Shown in pieces: positions 4,877-56,993 of a DNA stretch of 64,000 nt; within the stretch, counting starts at the first letter, position 1, and the number at the start of each line of letters is the position of its first letter. The notes beneath the pieces were generated by a model. The model was not told where the DNA came from and searched no databases. It saw only the letters and a program-made list of their open reading frames with translations. This DNA comes from Nitzschia sp. DOCU1 (taxonomy: Eukaryota; Bacillariophyta; Bacillariophyceae; Bacillariales; Bacillariaceae). The stretch covers positions 2,046,001 to 2,110,000 of the forward strand of contig OX595996.1 in NCBI GenBank assembly GCA_951394045.1, written 5' to 3'. The position numbers and the translations under genes are program-made.

Positions 4877-6910
4877 TTATACTGACTCGTAACGTGATAG
4901 TTCTGGATTGGACGTTTTGGAGGTGCCGCTGATTTGTCCATGTGCTGCTGCCGCCAACTGTTTTTGCTGTCCCACACTAATCGGTGTACCATCGGGTCCC
5001 AATGCAACTTGTGGTGGTACTTCTGTAGAGTGATATAATTTGGGCACGTACTTGTATTGAATACTCTTGGTTTTGGTACCCGGCAAGTTTTGTTGACTCA
5101 GGGAAGGTCCTGCACGCATCGAACCCATCTTGTACAAGACAGGACCGCGTCCATATTTCAAATATTGTTGATAGCGTTGCGATCCCGGCGTCAATGTAAC
5201 TTCATTGTTCAACAAAGGAGAACGTTCATCGGCATTTGGTTTCATAAATTTGTCTTTACGAATAATGGGCGTCTTGACAATTTCGACGGCACGTTCTTCG
5301 ATCGACGAGACAAAGTCTCGCACAATCGGCAAGGTATTCAATACAACACCTGACAACATGATGCACAGCAAAACCAAAAAATATTTGGAAACATGGGCCG
5401 TCGCATAATCTTGTAAATGAGCAATTTCGGTGGTCCCCCTGGCATTTTGAAACCACTGCGAGCACGAATGATACAAGAAAATACAAATGATATTGGGAAG
5501 GCCCCCGACACAAAAGATATTGGTAGCACTCGCCAAGACCTTTTTGTCGGGACTCGAGGCGGTAAAGGCCACTTCATAGGCTGCACTCACGGCAAAGATT
5601 TCTCCCCATCCAATCAAAATGTACGCGGGTGCTTGCCACAAGACACAAATCTTTTCACCCGTTTGTTGGTAGGAAGAATGAATCCAATGTTCCACCAACA
5701 ATGCCCAGGATATCGCGAGTGCACCCAAGCAAGATCCAATGGCAAATTTGTAAGTCGTGGGCAATTTAATACCACGTTGCGCCAAGGCGGGATAAATGTA
5801 ATTGGCCGTGATATATCCAAAACACAACACCGAGATACAATCCAAACTGTTCATACTGGCCACATCAATGACGCCAAACGCATTGCTCATGACTGTGCCT
5901 TGCACAATAAAGGTTGTAGGCATTTGATTGTATCCTACCGAAAAGGGAACAATCAAGACACAAGTTCGAAAAATGGTCGACAATGGAATCGTGTCGCCCA
6001 AAATCTTGTGTGTCTTGTGTCGTCGTCGTTGTTTGCCAGACAAAAACGCAAAGACTTCTCCTCGTGGCCTGTGACGGACATAACGAGATGCGCCCATGGT
6101 AAAAATGGTCACGCCGGTAAACAACAAGCCCAAGGGTACACTATAGGCAAGTGTCAAATCGTGTTGTGCCACGATTGGAATCAAGAGAATCCCTGCCAAT
6201 CCACCCACGTTGATGCACATGTAAAATTTGACATAGTAACTTTCAATCAAACTGGACTGGAGTAAGGGATGAAATTGTTTGGCCCCAAACACATTGACAA
6301 TGGACTTGACAATGCCGGTACCCATGGGCCATAATACCAGCAACGCCAAAGTCAACCAAGCCTTGTGAAATTCCACACCCAAAAATTCGGGAATGGTCGT
6401 CAAGGTCATGAGCAAGACACCAGGAACATAGAATCCCAACAAACCCAATAAAATGGATTTGAAATCTCCTAGAACCGAGTCGGCCAAGAAGGCCCCGACA
6501 AAGGGTGTGGTATACGCCACCATGGTGGATAGACTGACATAGGACGATGCCTTGACGGACGCAAATCCCGCATTCCAGTCTCCATCATAGGCCCCCGTCA
6601 AGTACAAGGTCAGAGTATAATAATAGCCATAAAAGCTAAATCTTTCCAAGAGTTCGACCATTAAAATGAAAATAACCGAAAAGGTCATGGGCTGGAGGGC
6701 ATACGTGAATTTGTTTCCGAGGTCATCAATATGCAATAGAGGACGCTGGGGGTCATCACTCAAACAATCCGAGGGCACCAGTGGCAATTGTGAATCCTCG
6801 GAAATATTGGTCGGCAAATCATCTTCCGGAAGTGGAGGACGATGAGGTTCCATAGTTTCATTGCGGGTGGCCTGAAACTTGGATTGGTGGTCATTTTTGT
6901 CAGTCGTCAT
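4877..6910 (-). CDS. POT/PTR (SLC15) family proton-coupled oligopeptide transporter
   Basis: Intronless, 677 residues, with ATG at 6910. A hydrophilic N-tail of about 70 residues precedes a polytopic membrane region. The family signature ExxERFxxYG is present as ELLERFSFYG (residues 86-95), the motif tied to proton coupling in POT proteins. It is followed by PFVGAFLADSVLGDF, matching the conserved block after TM2 (normally PxxGGxxAD). The long hydrophilic C-tail, about 100 residues with KYGRGPVLYK-like segments, is longer than in bacterial members and resembles eukaryotic ones. By family it should import di- or tripeptides or related solutes with protons at the plasma or an endomembrane. Substrate cannot be told from sequence; NRT1/nitrate-type transport is possible because plant members vary. 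It is divergent from the P4H at 7421 across a 510-bp spacer. Confidence 0.9.
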   Translation of the reverse strand: MTTDKNDHQSKFQATRNETMEPHRPPLPEDDLPTNISEDSQLPLVPSDCLSDDPQRPLLHIDDLGNKFTYALQPMTFSVIFILMVELLERFSFYGYYYTLTLYLTGAYDGDWNAGFASVKASSYVSLSTMVAYTTPFVGAFLADSVLGDFKSILLGLLGFYVPGVLLMTLTTIPEFLGVEFHKAWLTLALLVLWPMGTGIVKSIVNVFGAKQFHPLLQSSLIESYYVKFYMCINVGGLAGILLIPIVAQHDLTLAYSVPLGLLFTGVTIFTMGASRYVRHRPRGEVFAFLSGKQRRRHKTHKILGDTIPLSTIFRTCVLIVPFSVGYNQMPTTFIVQGTVMSNAFGVIDVASMNSLDCISVLCFGYITANYIYPALAQRGIKLPTTYKFAIGSCLGALAISWALLVEHWIHSSYQQTGEKICVLWQAPAYILIGWGEIFAVSAAYEVAFTASSPDKKVLASATNIFCVGGLPNIICIFLYHSCSQWFQNARGTTEIAHLQDYATAHVSKYFLVLLCIMLSGVVLNTLPIVRDFVSSIEERAVEIVKTPIIRKDKFMKPNADERSPLLNNEVTLTPGSQRYQQYLKYGRGPVLYKMGSMRAGPSLSQQNLPGTKTKSIQYKYVPKLYHSTEVPPQVALGPDGTPISVGQQKQLAAAAHGQISGTSKTSNPELSRYESV

Positions 6911-7420
6911 GATAGAAGCACAAAGTTAGCTAACAAACAAACGATGTAGCTTGTCCAATACAATTTGTCGTTGTTGTAAAGCTATCAATGATTGTCGGAG
7001 TGTTGTTATTCTCGCGTTTCCGTCTTTTGGGCAGAAATCATGCAATTGCAGAAATGGACGATGGTTGTTGGGATGGCATGTTCTATGTGGCGAAGGTCGT
7101 CGTCGGAGTCTCGGACGCCAGCGCGCCCATGATTTCGTGCGAATACTCTTGTCGCCCGGCGCGCTCGAAACATGAACTACGACAATACATAGCGTAGGTA
7201 AGTGATAGGTATCATATCTATCCATTTTTCGATTGATTCACCCGAATGCAGGATCCATTCAAAGAAGGGGTCTGCCCTCGCTCCCAAAACAAATGCCTCC
7301 CCCCGAAAGAGGCCGCTTTGTTTCCCCCTAAAAGTATGCTAGCGACCATGATGCACATCATCACGTTGAGATTGCATGGTGTCGGTCGGGCATCATTCAT
7401 TGCACTTTCCATACACTTGG
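6911..7420. promoter_or_regulatory. Shared divergent promoter interval (inferred)
   Basis: This 510-bp spacer separates the head-to-head starts of the POT transporter (minus) and the ShKT-P4H (plus). The arrangement implies that both promoters lie here. I cannot identify specific core elements with confidence. Confidence 0.4.
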
Positions 7421-13449: not shown

Positions 13450-15564
13450 CTACCATTGCATATCCTGTACCTTGACTCCAGCCGCAGCTCCCTTTGCATA
13501 ATGCATCGGTGGGACGACATGATAGCGCGTTTGATATCGATAGCTTGGTTTTGTCGAAACAGCAGCATGATCTTCCTCCTTTGCCGTCCCAAGGCTAGAT
13601 ATAGGCAGAGGCACAATAAGGTTTTGCAAAGTCTGATCGACTCGTGTCTTGGTTTCGGTTGGAGTTTCCTTTAACAAAACGGCAGAACTTGTTGCTATTG
13701 TCGTTGCTGCGGCTGATGTAGTCGTACGAACGCTCCCACCTCCATTGACACATCCATGAGGACAGGCCATGGCCTCCAAATAGTCCAAAGAAGTAGTAGT
13801 ACTACTATCATCATCCACCAACTCTTTGAGTACGCGTTGCATGGTTTGCATACCTCGAACAATGCCAAATTGCAAGAGACATTCCGGTCCAGGGGCTTGC
13901 GTGATACTACCATCCGTTTGACGATACAAACAGGCGCGATAGAATTGTTGCTTCTTTTGTTGTGTAGCGATGCGCATGGACTTGATTGTTTTTCCTGACG
14001 CTGCTGCTGTTGAACCAGCAAGTTCCCATTCTATGGGCTGTTGAGGGGGTATGGCACTGCCAAACAATTCACGAGCGGCAAATCGAAAAATGTAGTCGGC
14101 ATGTCCCCCCGAGGCCAAGGCCATGGTCTTGTATTCCTTCGTTAATGATGGCGATGAGCTGTTGACGGTAGTAGAGTCAATGCTAGCAACCACAGCCGAA
14201 TTGGTCCAATAATATACTGCTGCATTCTTGTCGTTGTCGTCCTCAAGCTTCTCGTGCAACAGCTTTGAAATCGAGTCAAAAGCCATGGTAGAAGTAGAAC
14301 AAGAGGCGGGCATATCCAATAGTTTTGCTGCTGGTAATTTGTTCAAGTAGTCTCGCATAGACGTTACTTCTTCTTGCTGTTGTTCGGTAGACGTACGTCT
14401 CCATTCTTCCACAAGTTCGACTAGTTCTACGGTCGTAATGACCAAGTCGACCGCTTGAATTCCAGACGAAGTATCATAAAAGTCTTTGCGTGAAGCTTCC
14501 AATTTCTTGTCATGACAAGGCATGACTGCCCAGTGTTGATATTTTTGAGTATGTAGATTCGTGGTCGACAAGGCCCACCCCATGCGACTCATGGGTGACA
14601 AGGTTCGTGATAAGGCGGGAACCAAGGCATGCATAGACTTTTCTACCAAACACACCAAGGCAGGACAGGATCCTGAAATAAATGGTAGTTTTGGGGCATG
14701 GTCGTAGTAAGGGTCCTGATTTTGCTCGCTACCCGTCGTGCCGCTGGTAGAAATTTGTGTTTGATTCGTCACTACTCGTGTCGTTCCATCGGCAAGATAA
14801 TACATGGAGCTTGTAGCATCTATCGCTGTGGAAGGGGGTGGTGGTAATATGGCTCGTTGTGATCCAAGTTGTTGTTGTTGTTTTTGTCGAAATTCTTGTA
14901 CAAATTCGATAGCTTCCTCTTGCCAAGTCCATTCCAAGGGGACATTTCCATCCACCACAACATAGAGTTGAGGTAATACTCGATGCAACAAGGATATCAA
15001 TTTCAATACATGCACATGTGGATCAAGTCGCCAATGACGACACATGTCTGCCAAGGAATTCGGCGACAGAGTTAACCAGATCCTGGTCGAGCTTGATGTT
15101 AACGCCAAAAGTCGTTGACGTAACGAGTTCAGGGAATGATGTTGCTCCATCAAGACTGTTTCGGCAGTCGTGACACATCCTGAACATGCCAAACAATCTG
15201 CCATGGACGCTTGGATGGTTTCTTTTTGTTTCGGGGGTTCTTCTGCACGATTCGTGCTCGTCAGAGATCGGCCATTTCCGTCGTCTTCTTTTTTTGTGGC
15301 GTCCGAAACTCGCGGTTCTTCTTCGACTTCTTTCCGAGCAGGAGCCACCCCTGCAACCACTCTTCGTCGCCGTTGACGTGGACGGGGTACAACAATCGCT
15401 GGTGTCGTCGCTGTAGCTGGCGTAGCGGCAGTCTTGTCCGACCATTCATTTTCTGCCGGTTGAAAGAGCGGATTTATGCAAGCTTGTGACGGAGCCAAAT
15501 AGTCATCGATCGTGTCCAGGACGACAACGCCGTTACTACTGCTATTCGCTGGAGTCAAAGTCAT
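13450..15564 (-). CDS. NAR1: NAR1/CIAO3 (NARFL), iron-only-hydrogenase-like cytosolic Fe-S assembly protein
   Basis: Intronless, 704 residues, with ATG at 15564. It is identified from the NAR1 signatures in order: TIDDYLAPSQACI (Cys29) and CLACSGC (Cys124, 127, 130) for the N-terminal cluster; then SGSCPALVCLVEK, VMPCHDKKLEASR and MACPHGCVNGGG for the C-terminal H-cluster-like site. All eight expected cysteines are present. Known role: bridges early and late stages of the cytosolic iron-sulfur assembly (CIA) pathway by contacting the CIA targeting complex. The protein ends in Trp (VQDMQW), as expected of the C-terminal aromatic tail used by CIA clients and adaptors. It is longer than the yeast and human proteins because of low-complexity inserts: a basic/acidic linker between Cys29 and Cys124, and Gln-, Thr- and Ser-rich loops. 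Confidence 0.93.
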   Translation of the reverse strand: MTLTPANSSSNGVVVLDTIDDYLAPSQACINPLFQPAENEWSDKTAATPATATTPAIVVPRPRQRRRRVVAGVAPARKEVEEEPRVSDATKKEDDGNGRSLTSTNRAEEPPKQKETIQASMADCLACSGCVTTAETVLMEQHHSLNSLRQRLLALTSSSTRIWLTLSPNSLADMCRHWRLDPHVHVLKLISLLHRVLPQLYVVVDGNVPLEWTWQEEAIEFVQEFRQKQQQQLGSQRAILPPPPSTAIDATSSMYYLADGTTRVVTNQTQISTSGTTGSEQNQDPYYDHAPKLPFISGSCPALVCLVEKSMHALVPALSRTLSPMSRMGWALSTTNLHTQKYQHWAVMPCHDKKLEASRKDFYDTSSGIQAVDLVITTVELVELVEEWRRTSTEQQQEEVTSMRDYLNKLPAAKLLDMPASCSTSTMAFDSISKLLHEKLEDDNDKNAAVYYWTNSAVVASIDSTTVNSSSPSLTKEYKTMALASGGHADYIFRFAARELFGSAIPPQQPIEWELAGSTAAASGKTIKSMRIATQQKKQQFYRACLYRQTDGSITQAPGPECLLQFGIVRGMQTMQRVLKELVDDDSSTTTSLDYLEAMACPHGCVNGGGSVRTTTSAAATTIATSSAVLLKETPTETKTRVDQTLQNLIVPLPISSLGTAKEEDHAAVSTKPSYRYQTRYHVVPPMHYAKGAAAGVKVQDMQW

Positions 15565-16062
15565 TGTCAAAGTACTTGGAGTATGCTATTGAAGGAAACT
15601 GCTGCCATGCCGATGAATGTCAAAGAGAAAGACACTCCAACGGAACGACGATGGGTGGTCATGGTCGTTTCCCCCTCGGACCCCCTCGGAGTTCGCCTTT
15701 GCGACGCGTTTCCCGCGCTCTCGCCCGCGTGTCTCAATTTGCCATCGAAAGTCCCTCCAAGACGACTTATGCGACTATCTGTTCGAACGCTCCGAAAGAG
15801 GACTTGTTTGACTAAATGGCTCCGACTAGCTAGTAGAAGATGACTTAGATGGGCAAAGTACAGGCTCAACACAAGGGCATGGCCGGTCAGAGACAATCTT
15901 TCACACGTTCTTTGGCACTTTTATCTTATTTGACTGCTGCTAGCTCTTTTTTTGGGTTTTCTTCTTGTGTGTGTGTCTCCTTATTGGGTGACTGCTGTCG
16001 TAGAGTAGTTCTCTTGTTCTTTGTGTATGTCATGTAACATTGGTTGTCCTCCTTGGACGATT
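15565..16062. other. NAR1 upstream region / spacer
   Basis: Upstream of NAR1 and downstream of the small lectin-like gene. Several overlapping short frames on both strands look like chance frames in 5' flanking DNA. No gene supported. Confidence 0.5.
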
Positions 16063-19711: not shown

Positions 19712-20831
19712 ATGCTCAACTCCAGTACTGTGTATGTTGCTTATGTTGACGACGGTAGAGACAGGCAGGGGCGGCGAGCTCAGCGGCAGGATTGCCAGTG
19801 TCGTCGTCATGCATCGAATGGCCGCTATCATGGTGGGGTACTTGTATCCCTCATCTCGCCGCTACTTGTACTGCTGTTAATATCAACGATATGGCTAGCC
19901 CCTAGTACATGGAATGTATCAATAGTATGTCCATATCATCGCCCTAATGAGTACTTCGACGACCACAAGACTGGCTTTTCATCCATCAATATCCCCGGTC
20001 TCTTATTACCCCACGGAGATTTTGCTTACGATCCTACATTGGTCAAGAATTATGACTCGGAAATGCAACGAGCAGCCCGCCAAGTGGCAGTTGGAGCCCG
20101 ACGTGCCGCAGCATCTTTTCGGGCGAAGGCAGCAGCAATGGATACGAATGCTACGCCACCCATGACCATATTATTGGTGACACCGCATGGGATTCAATTG
20201 GACGATGATTTTGGAATCTATTTGGCCGGCACCGCCACTGGCACGGCCGAAATTGGACAAGATTTGCCTTGTAATGCTACTGGCAGTTTGAGATATAATT
20301 TGACCATTTCCAATCTACCGCTGGACTTGGCGGCTGCGCAAGACTTGGTGGCGGCTTTGAAACAATCAAATCACAAAGTGCAAGGGATTCATCCCTACAA
20401 TGACGCATCGCCCATGCCATTGAATTGGGGGGAAATCATTCCATTGGCGTTGTTACTGCAAAATCAAACAACAACGACTACACCGAAAGCAAATTTTATC
20501 ATTCTTTCCATTCCCCATCGCCGCTATCAACATGCGGCCGATACAATGATACCCGAATTACTAAAACTGGGCGCAGCCATTGCCGAGTGGATGACTACAA
20601 GAACCACCGCGTCTCTCAAATTTGGAGTATTGTTATCCGGTGACTTGTCGCACACTCATCAACGTGACGGTCCCTATGGCTATTCCAATACCTCTGGGCT
20701 TTTTGATGCAGCCATGGGAGACTGGGTCATGGATCCATACCGAAATGAAGCAGCACTCTTGGAACGTGGTCGTACATGGCAACCAACGGCGTTATCGTGT
20801 GGCTTTGCGGGATTTGTGCTATGGCAAGGAA
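19712..20831 (+). pseudogene. LigB-type class III extradiol dioxygenase-like gene, 5' part (split by LINE)
   Basis: ATG at 19712. After a hydrophobic segment (GVLVSLISPLLVLLLISTIW, about residues 43-62) that could anchor or target the protein, a LigB-superfamily domain follows: LLLPHGDFAYDP, ILLVTPHGIQLDDDFG, then LLSGDLSHTHQRDGPYG and FDAAMGDWV. His residues in PHG and in SGDLSH are those expected to bind the metal in this superfamily. The frame then reads CGFAGFVLWQG and enters the LINE, ending 20 nt into it at a TAG. The remaining coding sequence resumes in the same frame at 29028..29368. With the insertion ignored, the gene is one uninterrupted 487-codon frame. Substrate unknown. This copy should be non-functional unless the other haplotype is intact. 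Confidence 0.85.
20814..20831. repeat. LINE target-site duplication, left copy
   Basis: TTGTGCTATGGCAAGGAA, 18 bp, identical to 29010..29027. It is part of the coding sequence of the disrupted gene (VLWQG). Confidence 0.93.
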
Positions 20832-20935
20832 ACAAACAAACGGTATACTAGTTTTTAAGGCTATCACCATACTCCCCAGACGGGACAGTAGTAGACTCAC
20901 CCGGGCGGCCTGAGCGACCCTCAAAGGTAAATTAA

Positions 20936-23900
20936 TTAACTGGGATGATCTGGCCACAAGTCCGAGAGTTTCTGTTGGTAGGTGCGATGAAGAGACGGAG
21001 TGCGTGTGCGGGGCCGGGGGCGGGAGCGGTACCATTGATGGAGTGGTGGTGGGCGAGAAGACGAGGGAAATGGGAAGTAGTCGGAAAGACGGGTGGGTTT
21101 AACGGAGGGAAGTCGGGTAGAATTGGATGGGGCGGATCGATGGAGCCGGCGGGCTGCTCGGGAACGCCGGAACGGGGATGGGAGGGGTACTTTCGGGAAG
21201 ATGGTATCGATGGCAGGGGTGGCCAGTTGTTGTTGCTTCTTGGCTTCTCGAACACTATATCTGATCAGGGGTTCGTGAACACTCAGCCAATTTTTAATGG
21301 AGCGTAGGGGTAGCTGAAGATGGGTCTCAACATCGGTGTAGAAACAATCGCGGTCTTCCAGTTGAACACTGTCGCGGAGAGAGTACAATCGGCGTAGTTC
21401 TCGTTCGACGTGGGCCATTTCTGCGCGAGCGGCAGAGGCACGGTCATGACCATGGCGGGCATCGCAGCGAAGTTTCCACATGGCATGGGATTTGTCCAGT
21501 AGCACGCTTATGAGGGAGCTCATCAGAGTCTGACCGGAACGAAAACGGGTGGACAGGGTAGTATTGCTTGCATAGGAATCTTGGAGTTCTTGCCAGTCTC
21601 GGACAAACTTTCCTCGAATAATATGGTCCCAGCCGATATTGTTCTGGGCACAAATCAAAGCACGGTATTTGGAAGGAAAGTCAGACCAGTCAACCTCGTA
21701 TGAGTCGCCGGTAAAATAGCGGGCTAAACCGTGACAAAGAAGTTGAAACAAGACAGGATCCAGCTGTTCCCGAAAGTTGCAATCAAGGTACAGAATGAGG
21801 TCTTGTCGCCAGAGGTGCCGAAGACGGTCAGGACATTGGAAGATATGGTCATCGCTTTCGTTGGCGGAATGGCAGCTTGGACAACGATCATCATACTTAG
21901 CCTCGCGTCGGTGGAGGCGGCCGCCAGTGGGGAGCTGATTGAAGGTAAACTTAGTGATAAATTTCCGTTTGGTCTTTTGGCGTTTTGCACCCTGGCTGAA
22001 AGCCTCCCAATCGATAGTGTCAAAACATTCATCCGTCCAATGGAAGCGTTCGTTGTAGTAGCGTCGAAGAGCCGGTAAAGAAGCTCGAGTCCGGATGGTG
22101 CGTTCGATGCGGCGAGTGACTGTATAGCCCCCGATGGTGAGCTGTGCCCGAGTCAAGGGGTCGAAGGGTACCCTGGGAAACGGGGTGCCCAACAACTCCA
22201 AGGCTTCGGTGCTCAAGGCGTCAGCTTCGATATTCAATTGGACTTGAAAGGGAAGATGGGAAACGGATCGACACTCCATGCCGTCGTCTTGGTGTCCATG
22301 AACGTGATTGATCGTGGGTGCTGTAGGGTATCGTTGCATGAGGTCATGATTCGCAACGATCAGATCCCATTCCGAATGAAGTGTAGTAGTAGCTAGAGAC
22401 GAACAGTTGCTTTTTGACGAGGCCCTGATTGTCGCAATATACATTCAGCGAACCCGGGGGTAGTGCGCGCTGCAGAAATTGAAAACATAGCTGAAGAAAC
22501 CAGTGGCCTGCCTTGCCGCCATAATTCTCCGCCCGATAGGACCGAGGATCATGACCGAAGGTCACGCCCTTGCCACGAGCCAGGCGTTTTTCTGTCGAGA
22601 CTTGGCCGATGACCCAGCCGAAGCTGCCATAGTCGGAGGCTGCACCACCATCCGTTACCAGGGCAAGATCGTTCAAATCGGAAATATCGCCGAAAGCAGA
22701 GTACACATCACCGGACGGAAATTCCCAATGTTGGAGGAGGCAGGAAACATGATCAGGTTGAGCATCGATGAATTCTTGTAAAGTCGCATAGACCGGGACG
22801 GGACACGGTGGAACTGCGTCCGGAAATTGCAGGGGAATTCGAAGGCCATCTTGGATAGACTCACATGGAACTGGTACGCCATCAGGGCACGTGTCGGTCG
22901 AGCGGACGGAAGTGGAGTTGAAAACATGGGTTCGGACCGGGGGATGAACCGCATAGCAGGAGCCATTCCAAACATACAGTTCACAGGTCGCCGGAGAGTA
23001 GAGATAATGCCAGGTGCGTCGGAGAGAAGAATTTCGGTGCAGCCAGCGACCCAGGGGTCGGTGGAGACGGCCATCAGGAAGAGCAAGGAGACGCAGCAAG
23101 CGGCGCCATTTAACCCAATGAGGGTCCATGGGTCTATCTTGACGGGGTTCCAATAGGCGGGAGGTGCTATGTGCCTGGCCTTTTTCACCACGATACACCT
23201 CTTGCTGAATGGAGAGACCATCGACGGTCGCGATGTCCGCCACAGTCAAAACCTCGAGATAAAGGCGACAAGCATTGACAATTCGAATTTCGTCGTCCTT
23301 GAAAGCGCCACATTCGACTGCAAAATCCATGAGATAGAAATCGTGTTCCCGTTGCAAGGCCTGAATCGTAATCCCAGAAATTGTAATCTGGCCGTCAATC
23401 GATACCAAGAAATCTCGAAGCGATTTGATCCAGAAGCCATCGAGATGAGGGAGACGTTGATCAGGATATTCCAGAAGAGGAGTCCCGGTACCCACAGCGT
23501 ATTGAAGGGAATCTAACGTAATCTGCGCCAGGTGACCAGCCTGGCTGCCCGGAGTCCGAAGATTGCGAAGAAGAAGGCGGATTTGCTCAACGCCCTGCTC
23601 AGTCTTGAGATCACGAAAATCAAGACCACAGAATTGGCTCGGGCCAAAGACGACGGCACGGGGGAATTTGCTGGTATAGTTCATCTTTTGTAGTGTGATC
23701 GATACCATGGTCCGTTGGAGGTCGTCGAGTTGTGAGGCTGTTAAGTGCGCGACGCCGAGAGGATACCCAATGCTCGGAAGGAAGAAATTCAGGTAGAATG
23801 TCCAAGCCTCGCCCGGGCGGACAAAGCTGGATGCCAAGAGTCGGGAGAACTTTTTAGCTTTGGCACGTAGCGTTCGAAATTGGGCCCGTTGATTCTCTGC

Positions 23901-26900
23901 CGGAGCCTGGTGACTTCCCAAGATTTTGTGGGCGGTGGTGGATGATAGTTGTTCGATAACGGTGGGTTTGCCAGTGGAATCCCGGACGACAAGACGTGGA
24001 CCAAATTGCCCTGGGCGGAAAACAGGCGCCCCTTTCGTCGTGAAATTGACCCAGAGGAAATGATAATAGCACTTGGACAGCTCCAGATCGCCGCCACTTG
24101 CGTACAGAATGTCACGCCAGAGCTGTGCATCATGTTGGGCTTGCTCAATCATATCTTGCACGGTACTGTCGCGATGCCCTGTTGTTTGACTGTTGTTGTC
24201 ATCGACGAAGCCAACCATTCCCAATTTGAGAACGTTGGAGCGATCTGGATTCTGATAGACGGCCCCATGGCATTGCTGGTCAAATATATCGAAGTAGGTA
24301 GATCCGCTCAGGGCCCAGGCGGGTGGTGACGAAGTACTGCCTTGGCCATTGCCAAACACCGGATGCTCAGGGGAATGCTGGTAAGACTGTTTCGACACTC
24401 CTAGCATGGTCTTGATAAAATACTGCGCGTACTGTAGGAAATCACCCTGGACTTCCGCCACGGTGGCCTGGAGTCCAAAGGACCGTGCAATAAGAATCGT
24501 GATGTGAGCCAACATGCGGTCGTAGCAGGAGGTCGCATCATTATTAAACTTGAGGTGGGGGAGGCGTGTAGCCATAACGTAATCGTACTGAAGGATTTCA
24601 ATCAGGATTGGGTCAAGGGCTTGGCGGCCTGGTCGCGAGCCATAGCAGCCCGGATTCAACAATTGCTTGTCCTCCGCATAGTGGAGCAGGTCTCGGAATT
24701 TGATACCAAAGAAGGCATTGAGGGTGGCTTCATACAGGTGAATCACACGCAGTCGATGCAGATAGGGACTACCCGGTTCCTTTTCGATCATGGCCGTGAC
24801 AACGGTCTTCCAAAGGTCGAAACAATATCCTTTCTTCTCTGCAAATTTCAAAGTAGAAAAATGCGCTTCCCAGATAGCTCGGCGGGCTGACAGGAACTCG
24901 TCATATGCAGCGGAGTCAGCCGATGGATCAAGTCCAGATGGACGGAAGAGAGCATGGTAGTGACTTAGATGTCGTCCTGATGGAGAGGTTGTTGTACGCT
25001 CATCCCACAGCTTGAATTTTTTGATCATCTCCGACAGCTGGAGTAGGTGTTTACGTTCCGGTGCACGTCGCTTGCAGGCCCGGAGAATGTTCTGTGCCTG
25101 CTTGTCTGAAGTGAGTGTAGACACATCGAATGTACCGTCTAGAATAGCGCGGGCAGTAGGCGTGTCAGCCCCCCATCCGATGGCATCAATGACCTCGGGT
25201 TGTGCTAGTGGAGTTGGATGCGCCTGGCCAAAATGTTCGAGGTTCCGGTTGAGTAGGGTGGATTCAATCTCGGTGGGGTCTTGGATAGTGCGCCACTGGG
25301 TAGGATCATCTCGAGGAATTGTCTTGGGGTCAACGGACGGTTCACGAGGTGCTTTCAAAACGGTAATACCACTGGCGGTACGGGGTTGGATGGACGGAAT
25401 CCGTTGATACATCGTCTTTAAGTCTTGTGCCTTCTTATATTGCTCCGCTACCTTGATGGGATCTTTGTCTGGTTGTGCCCGCTGAAGGGCCTGGATGCGC
25501 AGTTGGTGGTACTCCGTCTGCTTGTCACGGGCATGACGTGCGGCCATACGACATTTCTGGCGGATGTGGCGAATGGCTTTAATCGTATCGTCATGTGTCA
25601 AGGGTAGTGCAACTGTCTCCGAGATGGTGGTTTGTTTCTTGTGAATTTGATGAGACATGTCCCAGCCAGTCCGAAACTGGGATAGATGACTTTTCAGAAT
25701 ATGCAGATGAGTCATTGTTGCATGCAGTTCCGTGGTCCATGGTAATCGTCGATAGTACTTGCATTTTAATTCCGCTTGGATCATGCCCCTGAGCAAATCT
25801 CGTTCAACTTTTTCAGCCAGAGCGGCATCGGCAGCGTCGTCTTGTATGAGGGCACGTGCATGCTCGTAGACGCGATGGAGCTCGCAATATTCGTCGAGTG
25901 CTAGGACATACTTTACCAGAAGTGGAGGGACATCGGTGCGGACGAAGCGTGCCGGAGGGTTTGCAATTGGGACTGGTGCACGGTCGAAGATACCAGGTAG
26001 TAGGAGGTCCACGAACAAACCACGATGATCTGAGAAAATGCGATGGTTGAACGGTTCTGCGCCGCAGGCTTTGAGATGCGGTAACATCCTTGAGGAAACA
26101 AAAATATAATCCACGCGTTTCACGCCTCGCGAATAGGTCGGGGTTTCACAGTCGAGGCCGTGTCGATGAATATGGCAATCGGTGAGTTGCCCAGCATCGA
26201 GGATTGATTGGAGGCCGTGCACATCCTCGCCAGTTTCCTCGTTGAAGTCACCCATCAGAATCACATCGCATGATTTGGCATGAAGGGCCCTGACGTGGGC
26301 AGTGAGGTCGCGGATGAAAAAGGACCGAGGATTGGGGTCACGGTGTCCAGCCTGCCGAAGAAGAGACCGTTGCTGTTCGTAGAATGTTTGGTCGCCGTGA
26401 TTGCCCGTCTTTTGTACCACCTGGTAGGCTACGATGATATGAACTTCGCGATTATCCCGTCCCAGAAGACTGATGCCACACCAACGGCCAAGGCTATCAG
26501 AATATTGGCTCCGAACACGGCCAACAAGACAACCGGTGACTCCCAGGAGAAGACCGCCTGGTTTGTCAGGACCCTCGAACGGGATGGAGGAATGACCGAA
26601 TTGTAGTTTGCAGTGGTCCCAGATTGCCCGTTTATAGCGGTAGAATATTTCCGTAGTGGCACGATGGTGTGAATTAACTTTAGTTTCCGCGAACCCGAAT
26701 ATATCCGCCTGAATTTCGTTCATCTGAAAGAATAGGTCACCGACGTCCACACCGTTATCACCAAGGCGGACTCCATTGATATTTTGAAAATATATTCGTA
26801 GTGCTTGCGATTTCCACTTATTTTCTTCGATTTCCATGCAGGCTTTCCCATAGTCAGGGAGCGATAAGAGGAGGTCCAAATCGTCACCGTAAGATACATT

Positions 26901-27050
26901 ATTCTTGAGGTTCTCTGGAGAGACGATAGGGGGTTGACGTGATGCGTTGCGTGGAATGGTGCGTTGCGTGGGGGGTGGAAGATGTGGGGATGTATGGAAC
27001 TTGATGCGATGCTGGGAACGAGGCGGAAGAGTACCCGATGGGCTATTCAT
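20936..27050 (-). pseudogene. LINE ORF2 polyprotein: endonuclease, RT, RNase H, CCHC; one frameshift
   Basis: The main frame 27050..22344 (1,568 codons) encodes an exonuclease-endonuclease-phosphatase type endonuclease (YFQNINGVR about residue 85, MGDFNEE about 265, SDHRG about 339). It continues with a reverse transcriptase (NNDATSCYDRM about 836, GNGQGSTSSPPAWAL about 900, GFVDDNN about 945) and the first part of RNase H (VTDGGAASDYGSFGW, SYRAENYGG, VYCDNQG). At a TAC-TAC-TAC run near 22382-22391 the frame breaks. The rest continues one base over in 22444..20936: the end of RNase H (VHGHQDD, EADALS) and a Cys/His knuckle (CPSCHSANESDDHIFQC). The frameshift should abolish full-length ORF2 from this copy unless it is bypassed. 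Confidence 0.88.
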
Positions 27051-28929
27051 GATGAGGTTGCGTGGCCATTGGCTGATGGAATCCAGCTTGACTGAATCCC
27101 CCAGCAGAATCGTTGTGGGTTAACTCCGAGTTGCCCATCAGGGCATCGCCTTGATATCGATCAATAGTCATCTCGGTTGCAGGACGTTTAGCAGGCGGAG
27201 GCGAGGCTACGCCTCCCGCAGAAGACAAACTGAGCGGGGCACCGGTGAGATGGGTAATCAACTGGGCAAGCATCTGAGTCTGCTGCATTTGAGCTTGCGT
27301 TTGCTGGGCTTGGGCATGTTGTGCCTGGGTCATAAAGTCCATCATGCGTTTGTTCTGCTCGTCTTGGCGGGATAGTACCGTGTCTAGATAGCTGACAACC
27401 GTAGACAGGTCGCCTGATTGCACCGTTTTGGGCACCGATTGTCCTGCTAGAGATTCAGTCACCGATGCCGAGTCTGGTTGAGGAGGGTTCGTTGCGGGGG
27501 CGGGTGCTGGAGCCGGTGTGCCGCCAATGGATGCGGCCAGCACAGGAGCAGGAGTCTGCACCCCAGACAAATCGAAAACCATCTTCGGGCGCCGGTTCCA
27601 AGCATTCTCCGCAATGGATGGGAGGCCGGCACTGTGTTCTGGTTGCGAGGCGGTGCGAAGGATTTGACGAAGGGACTGCACGCGATTCTGCATGGTTTGG
27701 CCATGTCCTGGGGCAGCAAAGGTCAACCGGGGATAGGCACTGTAGTGGTCCAAGTACGAGGCATTCACCATCTGAGGAAATTGGTCCCGAAAGAATTCCG
27801 TGAGAAATGCTTGTGCAGTGGCGAAATTACCGTCTTCGACAATGAATATCCAGCGCCCAGACTTCTCAGAGTTGTCCGTAGGTTGGATTGAATCAATGAT
27901 CTCGAGGGCTGATAGGTATTGCAGAAGGGTACCGTTGAAGTTGCCGGAAGACATGGGGTCTTGACGCATGGGCAGGTCCCAAGCCGAGGGGTGGAGATTA
28001 ACCACAGTGATCCCACGCAGGTCCAGAGTTACATCGTTGTTGTGCATCAAAAACTCTCGATATTCTTCGGAACTGGCCAACAGATGGAAACCAATAGGTA
28101 TAAGTTCGAAGCCGATGTCCGTGGAAGGTATTTCTACCAGTAAATTCTTCGCAAATTCCGCGTACTGGTTGACACAGCAGACCGCGACGACTTCGGAGCT
28201 CACACGTTTATCACCATTGCCAAACTGAATAAGACGCTTTGTGGCAAATACTTCAGGAAGACCAGTAAGGCCCAATTTCTGTGCGTGGGTTTGCTGCTCG
28301 TGGGTAAGTTGCAACCGTGCCATAGCTTGATTTAATTTCTCAGTAAGGCTTTTCTTGTGAACCATATCGGCGTGGGCCCCGCTAGCCCAAGCGATAACAG
28401 AAATCTCTTCCTTCTTGAGTGTCTCGCCCGTCATCCAGAGCCGATTGGCCTGCAACCACGGAAGAAGCTTCTTCTTAACCATTGAGAGATTGTCCTCAGT
28501 AATAAGACAGTGAAGAAGTTTAATCGAAATTTGATTAGTGCTTCGAAGGGTTGTTTCCTTGCGGTGGAAAAAGGCACGATGCTCCGTTTCCGTCTTCGGA
28601 AAATCGTCCAACAACGAGAATGCGGACGGTTTTGGATCGATCACCTCATTGGTGGGCACGTAGTACACCTCCCCCCGAATAACGCTAGATAGCTTCTTCA
28701 GAAACGCCAGGTGGGTCGATGCTAGGTTGAAAGTCGAGGCAGATTGGTCAGCTGCAACGCGAATTTCAAGCGTGAAACTCGTTTTGCCCTCCTGAGCCTT
28801 CAGGACGGCCGCTGAAGCCCGGGTTTTTAGAATGCTGCGGACTGCAGGCTGAGCGGGAGACGTAGTGGTGGGAGTCATCGGCGTAGATGCTCCAGGAACG
28901 GTAGAAACGGGAGCCGAAGTTCCCGTCAT
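27043..28929 (-). CDS. LINE ORF1 protein (gag-like)
   Basis: 628 residues, with ATG at 28929. No CCHC zinc knuckle or RRM signature is evident. The N-terminus is Thr/Pro/Ser-rich; the body (about 50-450) is globular and unrecognised; near residues 535-565 there is a Gln-rich stretch of QAQ/QTQ repeats (TQAQHAQAQQTQAQMQQ) likely to form a coiled coil for multimerisation. By position it should be the RNA-binding protein of the element. Its stop overlaps the ORF2 start in the sequence ATGAATAG. Confidence 0.8.
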   Translation of the reverse strand: MTGTSAPVSTVPGASTPMTPTTTSPAQPAVRSILKTRASAAVLKAQEGKTSFTLEIRVAADQSASTFNLASTHLAFLKKLSSVIRGEVYYVPTNEVIDPKPSAFSLLDDFPKTETEHRAFFHRKETTLRSTNQISIKLLHCLITEDNLSMVKKKLLPWLQANRLWMTGETLKKEEISVIAWASGAHADMVHKKSLTEKLNQAMARLQLTHEQQTHAQKLGLTGLPEVFATKRLIQFGNGDKRVSSEVVAVCCVNQYAEFAKNLLVEIPSTDIGFELIPIGFHLLASSEEYREFLMHNNDVTLDLRGITVVNLHPSAWDLPMRQDPMSSGNFNGTLLQYLSALEIIDSIQPTDNSEKSGRWIFIVEDGNFATAQAFLTEFFRDQFPQMVNASYLDHYSAYPRLTFAAPGHGQTMQNRVQSLRQILRTASQPEHSAGLPSIAENAWNRRPKMVFDLSGVQTPAPVLAASIGGTPAPAPAPATNPPQPDSASVTESLAGQSVPKTVQSGDLSTVVSYLDTVLSRQDEQNKRMMDFMTQAQHAQAQQTQAQMQQTQMLAQLITHLTGAPLSLSSAGGVASPPPAKRPATEMTIDRYQGDALMGNSELTHNDSAGGFSQAGFHQPMATQPHHE

Positions 28930-29009
28930 GGTGAAAAAAAGTTGCGTAGGTTTGAAGGTGAGAATTCTACGGCTAATTTTTTAGCTTATCGACGTCTTCG
29001 ATCGAAGAA

Positions 29010-29027
29010 TTGTGCTATGGCAAGGAA
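29010..29027. repeat. LINE target-site duplication, right copy
   Basis: Identical to 20814..20831. The host reading frame resumes immediately after it with ATGTTACGC. Confidence 0.93.
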
Positions 29028-29368
29028 TGTTACGCTATCAACAAAATCGCCGACGAGGACGATCGATCGACAAGCGAGACGGATTTCAGATTCAGAGTTT
29101 ACGAAAGTATCATACTTTGGATCGGATTGCCGGAAAAGGGTTTTCGGAATCTTCGTGTACTATTACTTCGACAAGTCCTACGCGCAAGTCGAGTCTTGCC
29201 AGCAAAAGTAATAACGGCAAACGGGGCAAGGAACTTGAGGTGACGCTATATGTCAATCGAAATGTGACTTATTATGGAATGATGGCTGCAACTTTCTTCT
29301 GGAAGGGACGAGGAAAACGACGAACGCAAGTGGGAAACTGTAATCGACCAATGGCGTTCAAATGTTGA
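29028..29368 (+). pseudogene. LigB-type dioxygenase-like gene, 3' part (split by LINE)
   Basis: The last 113 residues of the gene begun at 19712, in the frame predicted by the duplicated target site: VLWQG from the duplication is followed by MLRYQQNRRRGRS, a low-complexity Ser/Lys stretch, then VTYYGMMAATFFWKG and a TGA at 29366. A Tyr-Gly-Met-Met type ending would suit the C-terminus of LigB-like proteins. It has no start or promoter of its own. Confidence 0.8.
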
Positions 29369-30148: not shown

Positions 30149-33100
30149 TTAAATCACAGGTGGAGAAGGAACAGAGCATCCAGCCATGTTGACGGGGTCT
30201 GGCTGGCAGCACTTGTAAAGTGCTGGCCTGGGGACATCCGGAGCGTCAACCCAAGTAATAGAGGAATCGTACGTGTATAGACCCCCATATGGCTCGTTGT
30301 CCTTGGTTGGATCGATTGACTTGTTAGGATCTTGACCACCATTCGGATCTGACTCCTCACGCCAATAGGTGAAGGCATTGGAATTCTCTATCAGGGTATT
30401 GTGGTTGGGATGGACGTTCGAGGTGAAGCTACCCGTGCCGTCGGTCCATGCGAATGTCCATGTCCTTACTGCTGCAACGGCGCCTCGGCCGCGCTTCTTC
30501 AAGCCTCGACTCTTTTTGCTTTTCTTCGATTTCTTTGGTGTCGACTTTCCAGGCAGCTTCTTCAGTCCAATGAAGACGAAGTCGAGGTTTAGATCGCCAG
30601 ACGGGAATGAAGCCAGGGCAGCTTCAGCTGCGGCTTGCTCCTCTGCGTTATGGATCGAAGCCATTTGGCATCCCAGCTTCTGAGCAGTCTCATCATGAAC
30701 CGAAAATGAAAGGATAGCATGATTCAAAAAGAAAAATGGATCGCCGTGCTTGCAAGCACACGTGCCGGGGTTCGTGGGAGGATCCGTGGGGGTGGGGGGA
30801 TCGGTGGGGCAATGTAAGTTGGATGGTTCAATGAAGCCTGTAATGTCAATGTCGTCAACGCAATGGCAAGGTTCACAGGAAACAACAGTACTGCCCTCGT
30901 AGTTGCCATTGACTCGGACCGAATTTGTGCTGAGATCCACACACTTTGAATAATACTTGGGCTCGCTGCCCCTCCCTTGACCATGACCATGACCTGATTT
31001 CAGGAGACAAACGGCATTCGTGGAACCCAAGCATCCATATCGGTCCGGTAGGTCTTTGACACACATTGCTCCTGGGTTCGTTGGAGGGTCCGTGGGGGGA
31101 TCCGTGGGGCATCGTAAGTCAGATTCTTCAACTTTAATACCGTCCGTAAAGTCAATGTCGTCAACGCAATGGCAAGGTTCACAGGCAACAACAGTACTGC
31201 CCTGGAATATGCCATTGACTCGGACCGAATTTGTGCTGAGATCCACACACTTTGAATAATACTTGGGCTCGCTGCCCCTCCCTTGACCTTGACCTTGACC
31301 TGATTTCAGGAGACAAACGGCATTCGTGGAACCCAAGCATCCATATCGGTCCGGTAGGTCTTTGACACACATTGCTCCTGGGTTCGTTGGAGGGTCCGTG
31401 GGCTCGGGGTTGGTAGGGGGATCGGTGGGGCATCGTAAGTCGGATTCTTCAACTTTAATATCGTCCGTAATGTCAATGTCGTCAACGCAATGGCAAGGTT
31501 CACAGGCAACAACAGTACTGCCCTGGAATATGCCATTGACTCGGACCGAATTTGTGCTGAGATCCACACACTTTGAATAATACTTGGGCTCGCTGCCCCT
31601 CCCTTGACCTTGACCGTGACCTGATTTCAGGAGACAAACGGCATTCGTGGAACCCAAGCATCCATATCGGTCCGGTAGGTCTTTGACACACATTGCTCCT
31701 GGGTTCGTTGGAGGGTCCGTGGGCTCGGGGTTGGTTGGGGGATCGGTGGGGCATCGTAAGTCGGATTCTTCAACTTTAATATCGTCCGTAATGTCAATGT
31801 CGTCAACGCAATGGCAAGGTTCACAGGCAACAACAGTACTGCCCTGGAATATGCCATTGACTCGGACCGAATTTGTGCTGAGATCCACACACTTTGAATA
31901 ATACTTGGGCTCGCTGCCCCTCCCTTGACCTTGACCGTGACCTGATTTCAGGAGACAAACGGCATTCGTGGAACCCAAGCATCCATATCGGTCCGGTAGG
32001 TCTTTGACACACATTGCTCCTGGGTTCGTTGGAGGGTCCGTGGGCTCGGGGTTGGTTGGGGGATCGGTGGGGCATCGTAAGTCGGATTCTTCAACTTTAA
32101 TATCGTCCGTAGTGTCAATGTCGTCAACGCAATGGCAAGGTTCACAGGCAACAACAGTACTGCCCTGGAATATGCCATTGACTCGGACCGAATTTGTGCT
32201 GAGATCCACACACTTTGAATAATACTTGGGCTCGCTGCCCCTCCCTTGACCTTGACCGTGACCTGATTTCAGGAGACAAACGGCATTCGTGGAACCCAAG
32301 CATCCATATCGGTCCGGTAGGTCTTTGACACACATTGCTCCTGGGTTCGTTGGAGGGTCCGTGGGCTCGGGGTTGGTAGGGGGATCGGTGGGGCATCGTA
32401 AGTCGGATTCTTCAACTTTAATATCGTCCGTAATGTCAATGTCGTCAACGCAATGGCAAGGTTCACAGGCAACAACAGTACTGCCCTGGAATATGCCATT
32501 GACTCGGACCGAATTTGTGCTGAGATCCACACACTTTGAATAATACTTGGGCTCGCTGCCCCTCCCTTGACCATGTCCTGATTTCAGGAGACAAACGGCA
32601 TTCTTAGGGCTCAAGCATCCATATTGGTCGGGTTGATCTTGGACACACAGTGGTCCTGGGCTCGTGGGAGGGTCTGTGGGCTCGGGGTTGGTGGGGGGAT
32701 CGGTGGGGCATCGTAAGTCGGATTCTTCAACTTCAATATCGTCCATCTTGAATGTACCGCTGCCACCAATGGATCCATCAGACTCAGTTTGAGGCACCAG
32801 AACATCAGAAAGTCCCTTCATGACGCTCGAAGTAGTGCTGAAGATGTTGCTAGATGGCAAGCCTTGTAGGCGGGAAAGATACTCGTCAAAGTTGTCATCT
32901 TGGAAGGCAGCATCAAGCAAATAGTTCAATTCGCGGACAGTGGGTAGAAAGATTGACGAGGGATTGAACAGACCAGTGCAGCGGTAGTCTACTTGGACGG
33001 GTTCATCGATGGTAAAGAAGTTGCGGATCATGTAGGTAAGGAAGTCATCCAGGTTGGTCAAAGACGTTTGTTCGAATTCTGCGAATATCATTTCCTCCAA

Positions 33101-36100
33101 GTAGGAACGGGTAACTTCAGCAACTGAAGCAAACTCATCATCAGTTGGCATTCGAGTAAAATCACCATCGTAGATCAGAGGGAATGGTGTAGCGCGAACG
33201 GGAATAGAATTGGCAGAAGTGGGAGACAGAGTAGGTGGAACCGGAACATCAGAAAGTCCCTTCATGACGCTCGAAGTAGTGCTGAAGATGTTGCTAGAGG
33301 GCAAGCCTTGTAGGCGGGAAAGATACTCGTCAAGGTTGTCATCTTGGAAGGCAGCATCAAGCAAATAGTTCAATTCGCGGACAGTGGGTAGAAAGATTGA
33401 CGAGGGATTGAACAGACCAGTGCAGCGGTAGTCTACTTGGACGGGTTCATCGATGCTAAAGGCGTTGCGGATCATGTAGGTAAGGAAGTCATCCAGGTTG
33501 GTCAAAGACGTTTGTTCGAATTCTGCGAAGATCATTTCCTCCAAGTAGGAACGGGTAACTTCAGCAGCTGAAGCAAACTCATCATCAGTTGGCATTCGAG
33601 TAAAATCACCATCGTAGATTAGAGAGAATGGTGTAGCGTGAACGGGAATAGAATCGGCAGAAGTGGGAGACAGAGTAGGTGGAGTGTTGCCGTTGAAAAC
33701 GCAATGGCAAGGTTCACAGGCAACAACAGTACTGCCCTGGAATATGCCATTGACTCGGACCGAATTTGTGCTGAGATCCACACACTTTGAATAATACTTG
33801 GGCTCGCTGCCCTTTCCTTGACCATGTCCTGGTTTCAGGAGACAAACGGCATTCTTAGGGCTCAAGCATCCATATTGGTCGGGTTGATCTTGGACACACA
33901 GTGGTCCTGGGCTCGTGGGAGGGTCTGTGGGCTCGGGGTTGGTGGGGGGATCGGTGGGGCATCGGAAGCCCGGTTCTTGAATTTCAATATCAGCGCAACG
34001 GCAAGGAGCACAGGCAACAACAGAGTGGCCTTGGTATATGTCATTGACTAGGATGGAATTCGTGCTGAGATCCACGCACTCTGAATGGTACTCAGGCACT
34101 TTGCCCTCCCCTTGATCAGTTCCTAATTTGAGGAGACAAACGGCATTCGTGGAACCCGAGCATCCGTATTGGTCGGGTAGGTCTTTGACACACATTGGTC
34201 CGGGGTTCGTGGGAGGGTCCGTGGGCTCGGGGTTCGGGGGGGGGTCTGTGGGGCATCGGAAGCCCGGTTCTTGAATTTCAATATCAGCGCAACGGCAAGG
34301 AGCACAGGCAACAACAGAGTGGCCTTGGTATATGTCATTGACTAGGATGGAATTCGTGCTGAGATCCACGCACTCTGAATGGTACTCAGGCACTTTGCCC
34401 TCCCCTTGATCAGTTCCTAATTTGAGGAGACAAACGGCATTCGTGGAACCCGAGCATCCGTATTGGTCCGGTAGGTCTTTGACACACATTGGTCCGGGGT
34501 TCGTGGGAGGGTCCGTGGGCTCGGGGTTCGGGGGGGGATCTGTGGGGCATCGGAAGCCCGGTTCTTGAATTTCAATATCAGCGCAACGGCAAGGAGCACA
34601 GGCAACAACAGAGTGGCCTTGGTATATGTCATTGACTAGGATGGAATTCGTGCTGAGATCCACGCACTCTGAATGGTACTCAGGCACTTTGCCCTCCCCT
34701 TGATCAGTTCCTAATTTGAGGAGACAAACGGCATTCGTGGAACCCGAGCATCCGTATTGGTCCGGTAGGTCTTTGACACACATTGGTCCGGGGTTCGTGG
34801 GAGGGTCCGTGGGCTCGGGGTTCGGGGGGGGATCTGTGGGGCATCGGAAGCCCGGTTCTTGAATTTCAATATCAGCGCAACGGCAAGGAGCACAGGCAAC
34901 AACAGAGTGGCCTTGGTATATGTCATTGACTAGGATGGAATTCGTGCTGAGATCCACGCACTCTGAATGGTACTCAGGCACTTTGCCCTCCCCTTGATCA
35001 GTTCCTAATTTGAGGAGACAAACGGCATTCGTGGAACCCGAGCATCCGTATTGGTCGGGTAGGTCTTTGACACACATTGGTCCGGGGTTCGTGGGAGGGT
35101 CCGTGGGCTCGGGGTTCGGGGGGGGATCTGTGGGGCATCGGAAGCCCGGTTCTTGAATTTCAATATCAGCGCAACGGCAAGGAGCACAGGCAACAACAGA
35201 GTGGCCTTGGTATATGTCATTGACTAGGATGGAATTCGTGCTGAGATCCACGCACTCTGAATGGTACTCAGGCACTTTGCCCTCCCCTTGATCAGTTCCT
35301 AATTTGAGGAGACAAACGGCATTCGTGGAACCCGAGCATCCGTATTGGTCGGGTTGTTCCTGTACACACATTGGTCCGGGGTTCGTGGGAGGGTCCGTGG
35401 GCTCGGGGTTCGGGGGGGGATCTGTGGGGCATCGGAAGCCCGGTTCTTGAATTTCAATATCAGCGCAACGGCAAGGAGCACAGGCAACAACAGAGTGGCC
35501 TTGGTATATGTCATTGACTAGGATGGAATTCGTGCTGAGATCCACGCACTCTGAATGGTACTCAGGCACTTTGCCCTCCCCTTGATCAGTTCCTAATTTG
35601 AGGAGACAAACGGCATTCGTGGAACCCGAGCATCCGTATTGGTCGGGTAGGTCTTTGACACACATTGGTCCGGGGTTCGTGGGAGGGTCCGTGGGCTCGG
35701 GGTTCGGGGGGGGGTCTGTGGGGCATCGGAAGCCCGGTTCTTGAATTTCAATATCAGCGCAACGGCAAGGAGCACAGGCAACAACAGAGTGGCCTTGGTA
35801 TATGTCATTGACTAGGATGGAATTCGTGCTGAGATCCACGCACTCTGAATGGTACTCAGGCACTTTGCCCTCCCCTTGATCAGTTCCTAATTTGAGGAGA
35901 CAAACGGCATTCGTGGAACCCGAGCATCCGTTGGTCCGGTAGGTCTTTGACACACATTGGTCCGGGGTTCGTGGGAGGGTCCGTGGGCTCGGGGTTCGGG
36001 GGGGGATCCGTGGGGCATCGGAAGTCCGGTTCTTGAATTTCAATATCAGCGCAACGGCAAGGAGCACAGGCAACAACAGAGTGGCCTTGGTATATGTCAT

Positions 36101-36675
36101 TGACTCGGATGGGATTCGTGCTGAGATCCACGCACTCCGAATGATACTCGGGGACGCTGCCCTTCCCTTTATTAGTTCCTAATTTGAGCAGACAAACGGC
36201 ATTCGTGGAAGCCGAGCATCCGTACTGGTCGGGTTGTTCCTGTACACACATTGGTTCAATAACCGGAGTCAATTTACGAGCAAACGACTCCTTTTCGTCT
36301 GTCAGATTATTTCTCATCCCGAGATTGTTGTTAATGTTGGCTCCACGGATGTACGGGTGTTTTCTTCGCTTCTCATTGTTCTGCAGCCATGCAGCGATGT
36401 AGAAGATTCGTGCAATTGAAATCAGAGTGAACGACAACGAAGACATTCATTATGATGAGATCATAAAGCAGTAGGAATACGAATAATGGGAATGGGCCAG
36501 AATGAAAGGGTTGCGATCTTCCCAGCAACCAGGCATGCTCATGTCCTTGTACCCCTTGAATATGGACTCTTACCTGCTCATGGAGTCCTCCCGTAGCTCC
36601 TGTGGCATATGCAGTACCTCCACGTTTGACCCCAGCAGATGCGGCGAGTAGAACAAGGCGTAAGTAAAGCTTCAT
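30149..36675 (-). CDS. Giant secreted protein: about 15 cysteine modules, twin internal domain, C-terminal C-type-lectin-like domain (one frameshift)
   Basis: Exon 1 is 36675..36574 (34 codons, signal peptide MKLYLRLVLLAASAG), with donor CAG|GTAAGAG. Exon 2 is 36380..30149 after a CTGCAG acceptor, phase 0. Exon 2 encodes eight type-A cysteine modules (period 294 bp), one type-B module, two adjacent copies of a roughly 145-residue domain (SLIYDGDFTRMPTDDEF ... LPTVRELNYLLDAAFQDD), six more type-B modules (321 bp), then a CTLD-like end (GCQMASIHNAEEQAAAEAAL ... WTDGTG ... ALYKCC). Modules read YGCxxxxNAVCLLK...CVDLSTNS...ACxPCxC and are joined by Pro-rich PTDPPTNPEP linkers. In module 2 two bases are missing (at 35930/35931, CATCCG-TTGG versus CATCCGTATTGG), which shifts the frame and gives a stop at 35880. 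This is a real mutation or an assembly error. It shares exon layout and both domain types with 16063..17444. Likely cell-wall or extracellular; function unknown. Confidence 0.75.
30765..32655 (-). repeat. Type-B tandem array, six units, mostly 321 bp
   Basis: Near-identical units with the cysteine module in type-B wording (GSEPKYYSKCVDLSTNSVRVNG) and an acidic linker (DDIKVEESDLRC). A seventh type-B unit sits apart at about 33690..33902. The last unit before the lectin-like domain is the most diverged and has a shorter linker. Confidence 0.9.
32790..33690 (-). repeat. Twin copies of an unrecognised domain (about 145 residues each)
   Basis: Two direct copies of about 450 bp, roughly 33690..33240 and 33240..32790, inserted between the two cysteine-module arrays. 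They differ at a handful of residues (for example AFSIDEP versus FFTIDEP). Each begins with a PPTLSPTSA linker. Confidence 0.85.
33903..36254 (-). repeat. Type-A tandem array, eight units of 294 bp
   Basis: Near-identical 98-codon units, each one cysteine module plus Pro-rich linker. The unit nearest the 5' end and the third variant (QEQPDQ instead of KDLPDQ) differ slightly; the others are almost the same at nucleotide level. One unit carries the 2-bp deletion near 35930. Confidence 0.9.
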
Positions 36676-55936: not shown

Positions 55937-56426
55937 TAAATCTTCTCTGCTGGCGACCAAGAGGTAGTATGTTTAGCCAACCACAGTTTCCACCAATCCA
56001 GTTTCCACCACTCCATCGCTGAACAAAGTGCATTCGCAAAGATTGGCGCCAGATTGCGCCGTTTGGGAAGCATATCTTTCACATGCTTCGAATAATGTCT
56101 CATCTTGCAAGAATCGTTTCCGTTTTTAGTACACGATCTTCAAAGAACCTTTCCTTGAATTCTAGGGGCCTGAAAGCACTCACGAGATGGCCTACACGTT
56201 CCCAGGTGCGACTAAGCGGTGAGATGCATTCTTTCGAGCCATCCCACGAGCTAAGTCCGCCGTCGTTAAATTACACAAACACTGCGCAAACGTACCACTG
56301 TTAACTACTAGCACCGGGACCAAAGTTAAGATTGAAGACTCCATCATTGTGCTGTCGACTTCGTTTTGGCAAGAGGGTTGTGAGCCGCATAAGATGGTGT
56401 GATGTGGATCTTCTGGGTGTTGTTGT
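55937..56426. repeat. 5' flank of the copia element that is repeated downstream
   Basis: 490 bp of non-LTR sequence (part of the pseudogene) that recurs at 61997..62486 with one visible mismatch (CCCACGAG versus CCCATGAG). Together with the LTR it forms a 1,014-bp direct repeat with a constant 6,060-bp offset. Confidence 0.85.
56422..56426. repeat. Probable copia target-site duplication, left
   Basis: GTTGT precedes the LTR, and GTTGT follows the right LTR at 63011..63015. The left copy lies in a GTTGTTGTT run, so the LTR border may be 3 bp off. Confidence 0.6.
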
Positions 56427-56950: not shown

Positions 56951-56993
56951 TTGTTTCCAAGTAAAAAGATTACTGGTTTTTAAGCGAAAGTGT

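Follow-up and report, generated by a model that had tools for sequence, protein, structure and literature searches.

Has a mobile element disabled a gene between positions 19712 and 29368 of this DNA, or do two separate coding pieces lie on either side of it? The stretch analyzed here, referred to as the window, comprises 64,000 nucleotides of contig OX595996.1 of Nitzschia sp. DOCU1. The initial annotation had read the segment as one LigB-like gene split by a full-length and recently inserted long interspersed nuclear element (LINE). Our analysis leads to much the same answer, with a probability of roughly 0.9: a LINE of the apurinic/apyrimidinic endonuclease (APE) type has inserted into a gene of the LigB superfamily (class III extradiol dioxygenase-like) and truncated it, leaving what is presumably a loss-of-function allele. 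The features involved are as follows.

19712..20831, plus strand: host gene of the LigB superfamily (PF02900), 5' part with the first duplication copy; from the Pfam LigB match and relatives
20814..20831, plus strand: target-site duplication, first copy; from an exact word match
20832..29009, minus strand: full-length LINE; ends common to other genomic copies
20832..20935, minus strand: LINE 3' untranslated region (UTR), with a short GTTTGTTTGT tail in place of poly(A), conserved in part from one subfamily to another; from comparison of copies
20849..20851, plus strand: premature stop of the occupied allele; from reading the frame
20936..22444, minus strand: second part of LINE open reading frame 2 (ORF2), in a different frame, 502 amino acids, with a weak zf-RVT match below the Pfam cutoff; from the ORF list and Pfam
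22344..27119, minus strand: first part of LINE ORF2, 1591 amino acids, with an APE-type endonuclease (PF03372), reverse transcriptase (RT) motifs and, judged from motifs, the start of an RNase H-like domain
27043..28980, minus strand: LINE ORF1, 645 amino acids from stop to stop; from the ORF list
29010..29027, plus strand: target-site duplication, second copy; from an exact word match
29028..29368, plus strand: 3' part of the host gene, a variable linker and then the conserved C-terminal motif VNRNVTYYGMMAATF, with the stop at 29366 to 29368; from the frame and relatives

The edges of the insert are marked by an 18-mer, TTGTGCTATGGCAAGGAA, that is present at 20814 to 20831 and again at 29010 to 29027 with 0 mismatches, and extension of the match by even one base fails on both sides. 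The whole window holds no third place for this word within 2 mismatches, and in 100 shuffled windows it had a mean of 0.01 occurrences, with none of the windows containing two. The stretch between the copies (20832 to 29009) measures 8178 bp. The host frame runs from an ATG at 19712 to a stop at 20849, giving 379 codons, the final six of which follow the last codon in common with the joined protein and are unlike it. When the flanks are joined at the duplication, the frame continues to the stop at 29366 to 29368, giving 486 codons over 19712 to 29368, or 487 counting the stop. The duplication, the length of the insert, and the interrupted and resumed frame had all been given correctly in the initial annotation. 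The predicted truncated product of 379 amino acids lacks 113 C-terminal residues of the joined protein, nearly its last quarter.

The element is encoded on the minus strand and is thus antisense to the host gene, its 5' end being at 29009 and its 3' end at 20832. That it is a LINE is borne out by the APE domain, the RT motifs, the existence of 5'-truncated sister copies, and direct repeats at copies; that it is full length is confirmed at both ends by other copies in the genome. Its long minus-strand ORFs are of 645 amino acids, 1591 amino acids and, overlapping in another frame, 502 amino acids. ORF2 matched the endonuclease model PF03372 (5.7e-8, 33.2 bits, cutoff 24.5), and its second part scored 25.3 bits with zf-RVT, below the cutoff of 27.5. 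For ORF1, a Pfam search gave nothing with E under 0.05. Three residues of the RT motifs (D861, D973, and D974) do not vary among 22 aligned ORF2 proteins, including that of the window copy; at E<=0.01, 19 of these proteins matched PF03372 and 11 matched zf-RVT. When ORF2 residues 640 to 1140 were used as the query, 429 proteins were found at E<=0.001 among 7994 candidates scored, and the best 120 of these included proteins from Fragilariopsis cylindrus and Epithemia. Among the sequences of solved structures, ORF2 by itself found one weak match and the ORF2 profile found two endonuclease or exonuclease chains; neither search matched an RT structure. Several ORF2 relatives (among P0162 to P0184) carry, mostly alongside the endonuclease, a PTM/DIR17-like Tudor domain (PF21743), an unusual accessory domain that is present in 3 of the 22 aligned members. 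Direct or inverted repeats of 20 nucleotides or more were sought in the 8178-bp insert and none was found; the insert therefore has no long terminal repeats (LTRs). The 150 nucleotides at the LINE 3' end folded no better than shuffled sequences (z 0.48), and an Rfam scan of the window returned nothing above gathering scores.

Copies of the element were sought in a single assembly of 52 Mb and 63 contigs. A probe made of the first 1001 bp of the insert had 19 other matches, of which 11 start no more than three bases from the left end; among the 20 other matches to the last 1510 bp, 13 extend exactly to the right end. The 3' ends of the copies are GTTTGTTTGT or near it, with no poly(A). The closest copy (L043) is 5' truncated and spans 2042 bases at a BLAST identity of 98.3%; it differs from the window LINE by 18 substitutions in 2042 aligned bases (0.9%), 15 of them transitions. 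A 92-bp copy (L044) is 100% identical; like L043, it is 5' truncated and has its 3' end in common with the window LINE, and three longer relatives show about 68 to 70% identity in long pieces. Nine copies were checked for flanking direct repeats, a tenth (L046) being excluded as its 3' end lies in another locus. Such repeats were present at six of the nine, the window copy included, and they range from 10 to 26 bp with every sequence different. The perfect duplication, the frame open on both sides of the insert, and the 0.9% substitution relative to the nearest sister copy together suggest that the insertion is fairly young, in agreement with its earlier description as recent.

Related copies with a single long open ORF2 are present in the genome. 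Four copies of a sister subfamily (L057 to L060 and L016 to L019; contigs C8, C1, C11, and C8) have ORF2 scores between 2470 and 2499 bits, open frames of 2032 to 2080 amino acids, and almost identical 3' ends, and the genome may on this account hold recently active LINEs. In the 3' UTR (20832 to 20935, minus strand; 3' ends in L004 to L021), blocks near GCCGCCCGGGTGAGTC are kept across subfamilies, although overall identity to the longer relatives is just about 68 to 70%, and are perhaps a signal recognized by the RT. Several short copies whose homology begins close to a single position in the 3' UTR were considered as a short interspersed element (SINE) or as the product of an RT stop; the idea was dropped because the flanking repeat of at least one of them (L013) lies further out, the element being longer than its aligned part.

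The window LINE is much like the diatom APE-type LINEs with an RNase H-like domain found in Fragilariopsis cylindrus and Epithemia. The likeness extends to the two ORFs, the APE endonuclease, the RT motifs, the RNase H-like and zinc-finger-like C terminus, and, for the family, 5'-truncated copies and direct repeats of varying length. It differs from them in an RT that is not seen by RVT_1, in the GTTTGTTTGT tail without poly(A), and in its interrupted ORF2. LINE clade names (I, R1, Tad1, Ambal, and others) are tabulated in PMC5753468.

The host gene was assigned first of all by its left piece (19712 to 20848), which scored 29 bits with Pfam LigB, PF02900 (cutoff 26.3; residues 129 to 342 matched). 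The joined protein scored 28.2 bits over residues 138 to 342, in the left part alone, and the right piece had no Pfam match. The hidden Markov model search that had been proposed for the joined halves thus recovered the left half and was indecisive for the right; comparison with full-length relatives decided the matter. With the joined protein as the query, 125 relatives were found at E<=1e-3 among 7994 candidates scored, and Cylindrotheca, Nitzschia, Pseudo-nitzschia, and Amphora are named among the best 120. PF02900 was matched at E<=0.01 by 41 of 53 aligned relatives. By motif, two histidines of the 54 aligned rows would suit a metal site of two His and one Glu or His: His 159, which is invariant, and His 101, conserved at 90% or more.

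Structural models were compared for one relative (P0003) and for the truncated window protein. The best match for both was 5hee, which we take to be TK2203 of Thermococcus kodakarensis, a putative class III extradiol dioxygenase, and the two models support a class III extradiol dioxygenase fold. Identity between TK2203 and the modeled proteins is 21 to 22%. Unlike TK2203, P0003 and the window protein carry an N-terminal helix that the match does not cover, and P0003 has a disordered linker ahead of its last strands. Identity to other members of the superfamily (LigAB, 2-aminophenol 1,6-dioxygenase, plant 4,5-DOPA dioxygenase, and MEMO1) is 9 to 18%; MEMO1 is not known to be a dioxygenase. The counterpart of the 113 lost residues in the modeled relative is predicted to include two confident beta-strands.

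Is the right piece truly part of this gene? The absence of a Pfam match leaves room for the two host pieces to be separate genes, or for the right piece to be foreign to the LigB-like gene with the joined frame a coincidence, but the relatives make this very improbable. In an alignment with 21 chosen relatives, the right piece has the VNRNVTYYGMMAATF motif in the same place, behind a linker of variable length (by pattern, SCG and TYYGM are 29 to 131 residues apart in the 105 relatives, out of 120, in which both were found). A Y[YF]GM motif, counted anywhere in the protein, is present in 117 of the best 120 of the 125 relatives and was not found in P0094, P0107, and P0112. Translated in the joined frame, the right piece matches 84 of the 120 at E<=1e-3, whereas no match at that level was given by either of the other forward frames, by any of the three reverse frames, or by 50 shuffles. 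On this frame and shuffle control we rejected the two-gene reading. The initial annotation had also asked whether the right piece might fall outside the family or be lacking from relatives, and the 117 relatives with the motif speak for a single LigB-like gene split in two, the C-terminal piece belonging to the same family as the left one. A LINE misjoined at this place by the assembler is just as improbable. The source is a single assembly, but an 18-bp duplication without a mismatch, placed directly against both true ends of the element, would hardly come from a misjoin, and each probed flank piece (left, 232 bp; right, 673 bp) has one match in the genome. The left-hand protein likewise has a single match, and the assembly therefore yielded neither a paralogue nor a contig from a second haplotype.

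Some results do weigh against a LINE insertion that truncates the host gene. The window copy has no match to Pfam RVT_1 at E<=1, and RVT_1 recognizes just 9 of the 22 aligned ORF2 proteins at E<=0.01; because this model misses the window copy, the RT call rests on the conserved motifs and on the relatives. No flanking repeat was found at three of the nine LINE copies checked, and several of the six repeats that were found are not flush with the aligned end. Aligned against its closest copy, the window LINE has a single short gap, of 17 bp; across that stretch the reading frame stays open in the closest copy but is broken in the window LINE, which is therefore full length but interrupted in ORF2. 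Either some time has passed since the insertion, or the copy was already defective when it was made, or the assembly is in error at this point. Finally, in-frame splice pairs around the insert are possible on paper. A scan of GT/AG pairs (donors from 20780 to 20850, acceptors up to about 29120) gave 17 same-phase pairs, 2 of which still hit a stop. The insert might accordingly be tolerated, the antisense LINE being spliced out of the host transcript, or the truncated protein, which retains the conserved histidine motifs upstream of the break, might still work. We consider such tolerance unlikely. In one of the pairs, the donor G is at 20843 and the exon resumes at 28985 after TTTTTTAG, near both ends of the LINE, to give a protein of 504 amino acids, 18 residues more than the joined protein, in or beside the linker that varies in length among relatives. 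If true, a full-length LINE would be acting as an intron inside a coding gene. That the antisense element supplies a usable donor and acceptor near its ends, with all 8.1 kb spliced out and 18 residues gained beside the linker, appears less likely still. Frame-keeping pairs are so many that any one of them is no evidence by itself, and an 8.1-kb intron would, to our knowledge, be exceptional for a diatom. As for a working truncated protein, the lost part contains Y422, G424, and M425 (P0003 numbering), which are invariant in the 53 aligned relatives.

Truncation by the LINE thus remains our preferred reading, and the event that it implies would be an ordinary one, LINE insertion into a gene being a common and well-understood kind of mutation. 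The element would have entered roughly three quarters of the way along a host gene present in one copy in the assembly. Its endonuclease would have nicked the target, reverse transcription of the 3' tail of the LINE RNA would have started at the nick (target-primed reverse transcription), and the staggered cuts, once repaired, would have left the 18-bp duplication. We infer this route because of the shared ends, the 5'-truncated copies, the varied flanking repeats, and the GTTTGTTTGT tails. The truncated product would be expected to misfold or to be inactive, which would make the allele a loss-of-function one; from the sequence, loss of function of the host gene is likely.

Other features of the window and assembly lie apart from this event. 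Upstream of the host gene are two minus-strand ORFs, one at 4877 to 6925 with a POT-family transporter match (PF00854) and one at 13450 to 15585 with a match to the Fe-only hydrogenase large subunit C-terminal domain (PF02906). A 2009-amino-acid frame (30149 to 36178, minus strand) is open through tandem arrays whose units, of 294 bp and 321 bp, are 96% alike, and a Pfam scan of this frame gave no match above the cutoff. At 55937 to 62296 there is an LTR retrotransposon with two direct repeats (300 nucleotides as reported, 100% identical, 6060 bp apart) and ORFs at 57275 to 60607 (zinc knuckle) and 60608 to 61999 (RVT_2), with one stop between them. We take it from the RVT_2 match to be Copia-like, and its identical LTRs point to a recent insertion. 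Elsewhere in the assembly, contig C63 has a RuBisCO large-chain match.

Judged by titles and the beginnings of abstracts, none of the papers listed in our literature searches deals with this host gene or this LINE family. The locus provides a clean candidate for natural loss of function in a diatom-type gene that is present in one copy in the assembly, and it documents, in a diatom-like genome, a multicopy LINE family that includes young copies and has a tail other than poly(A). Should the allele segregate, comparing strains that carry the insert with strains that lack it would directly test the role of the gene.
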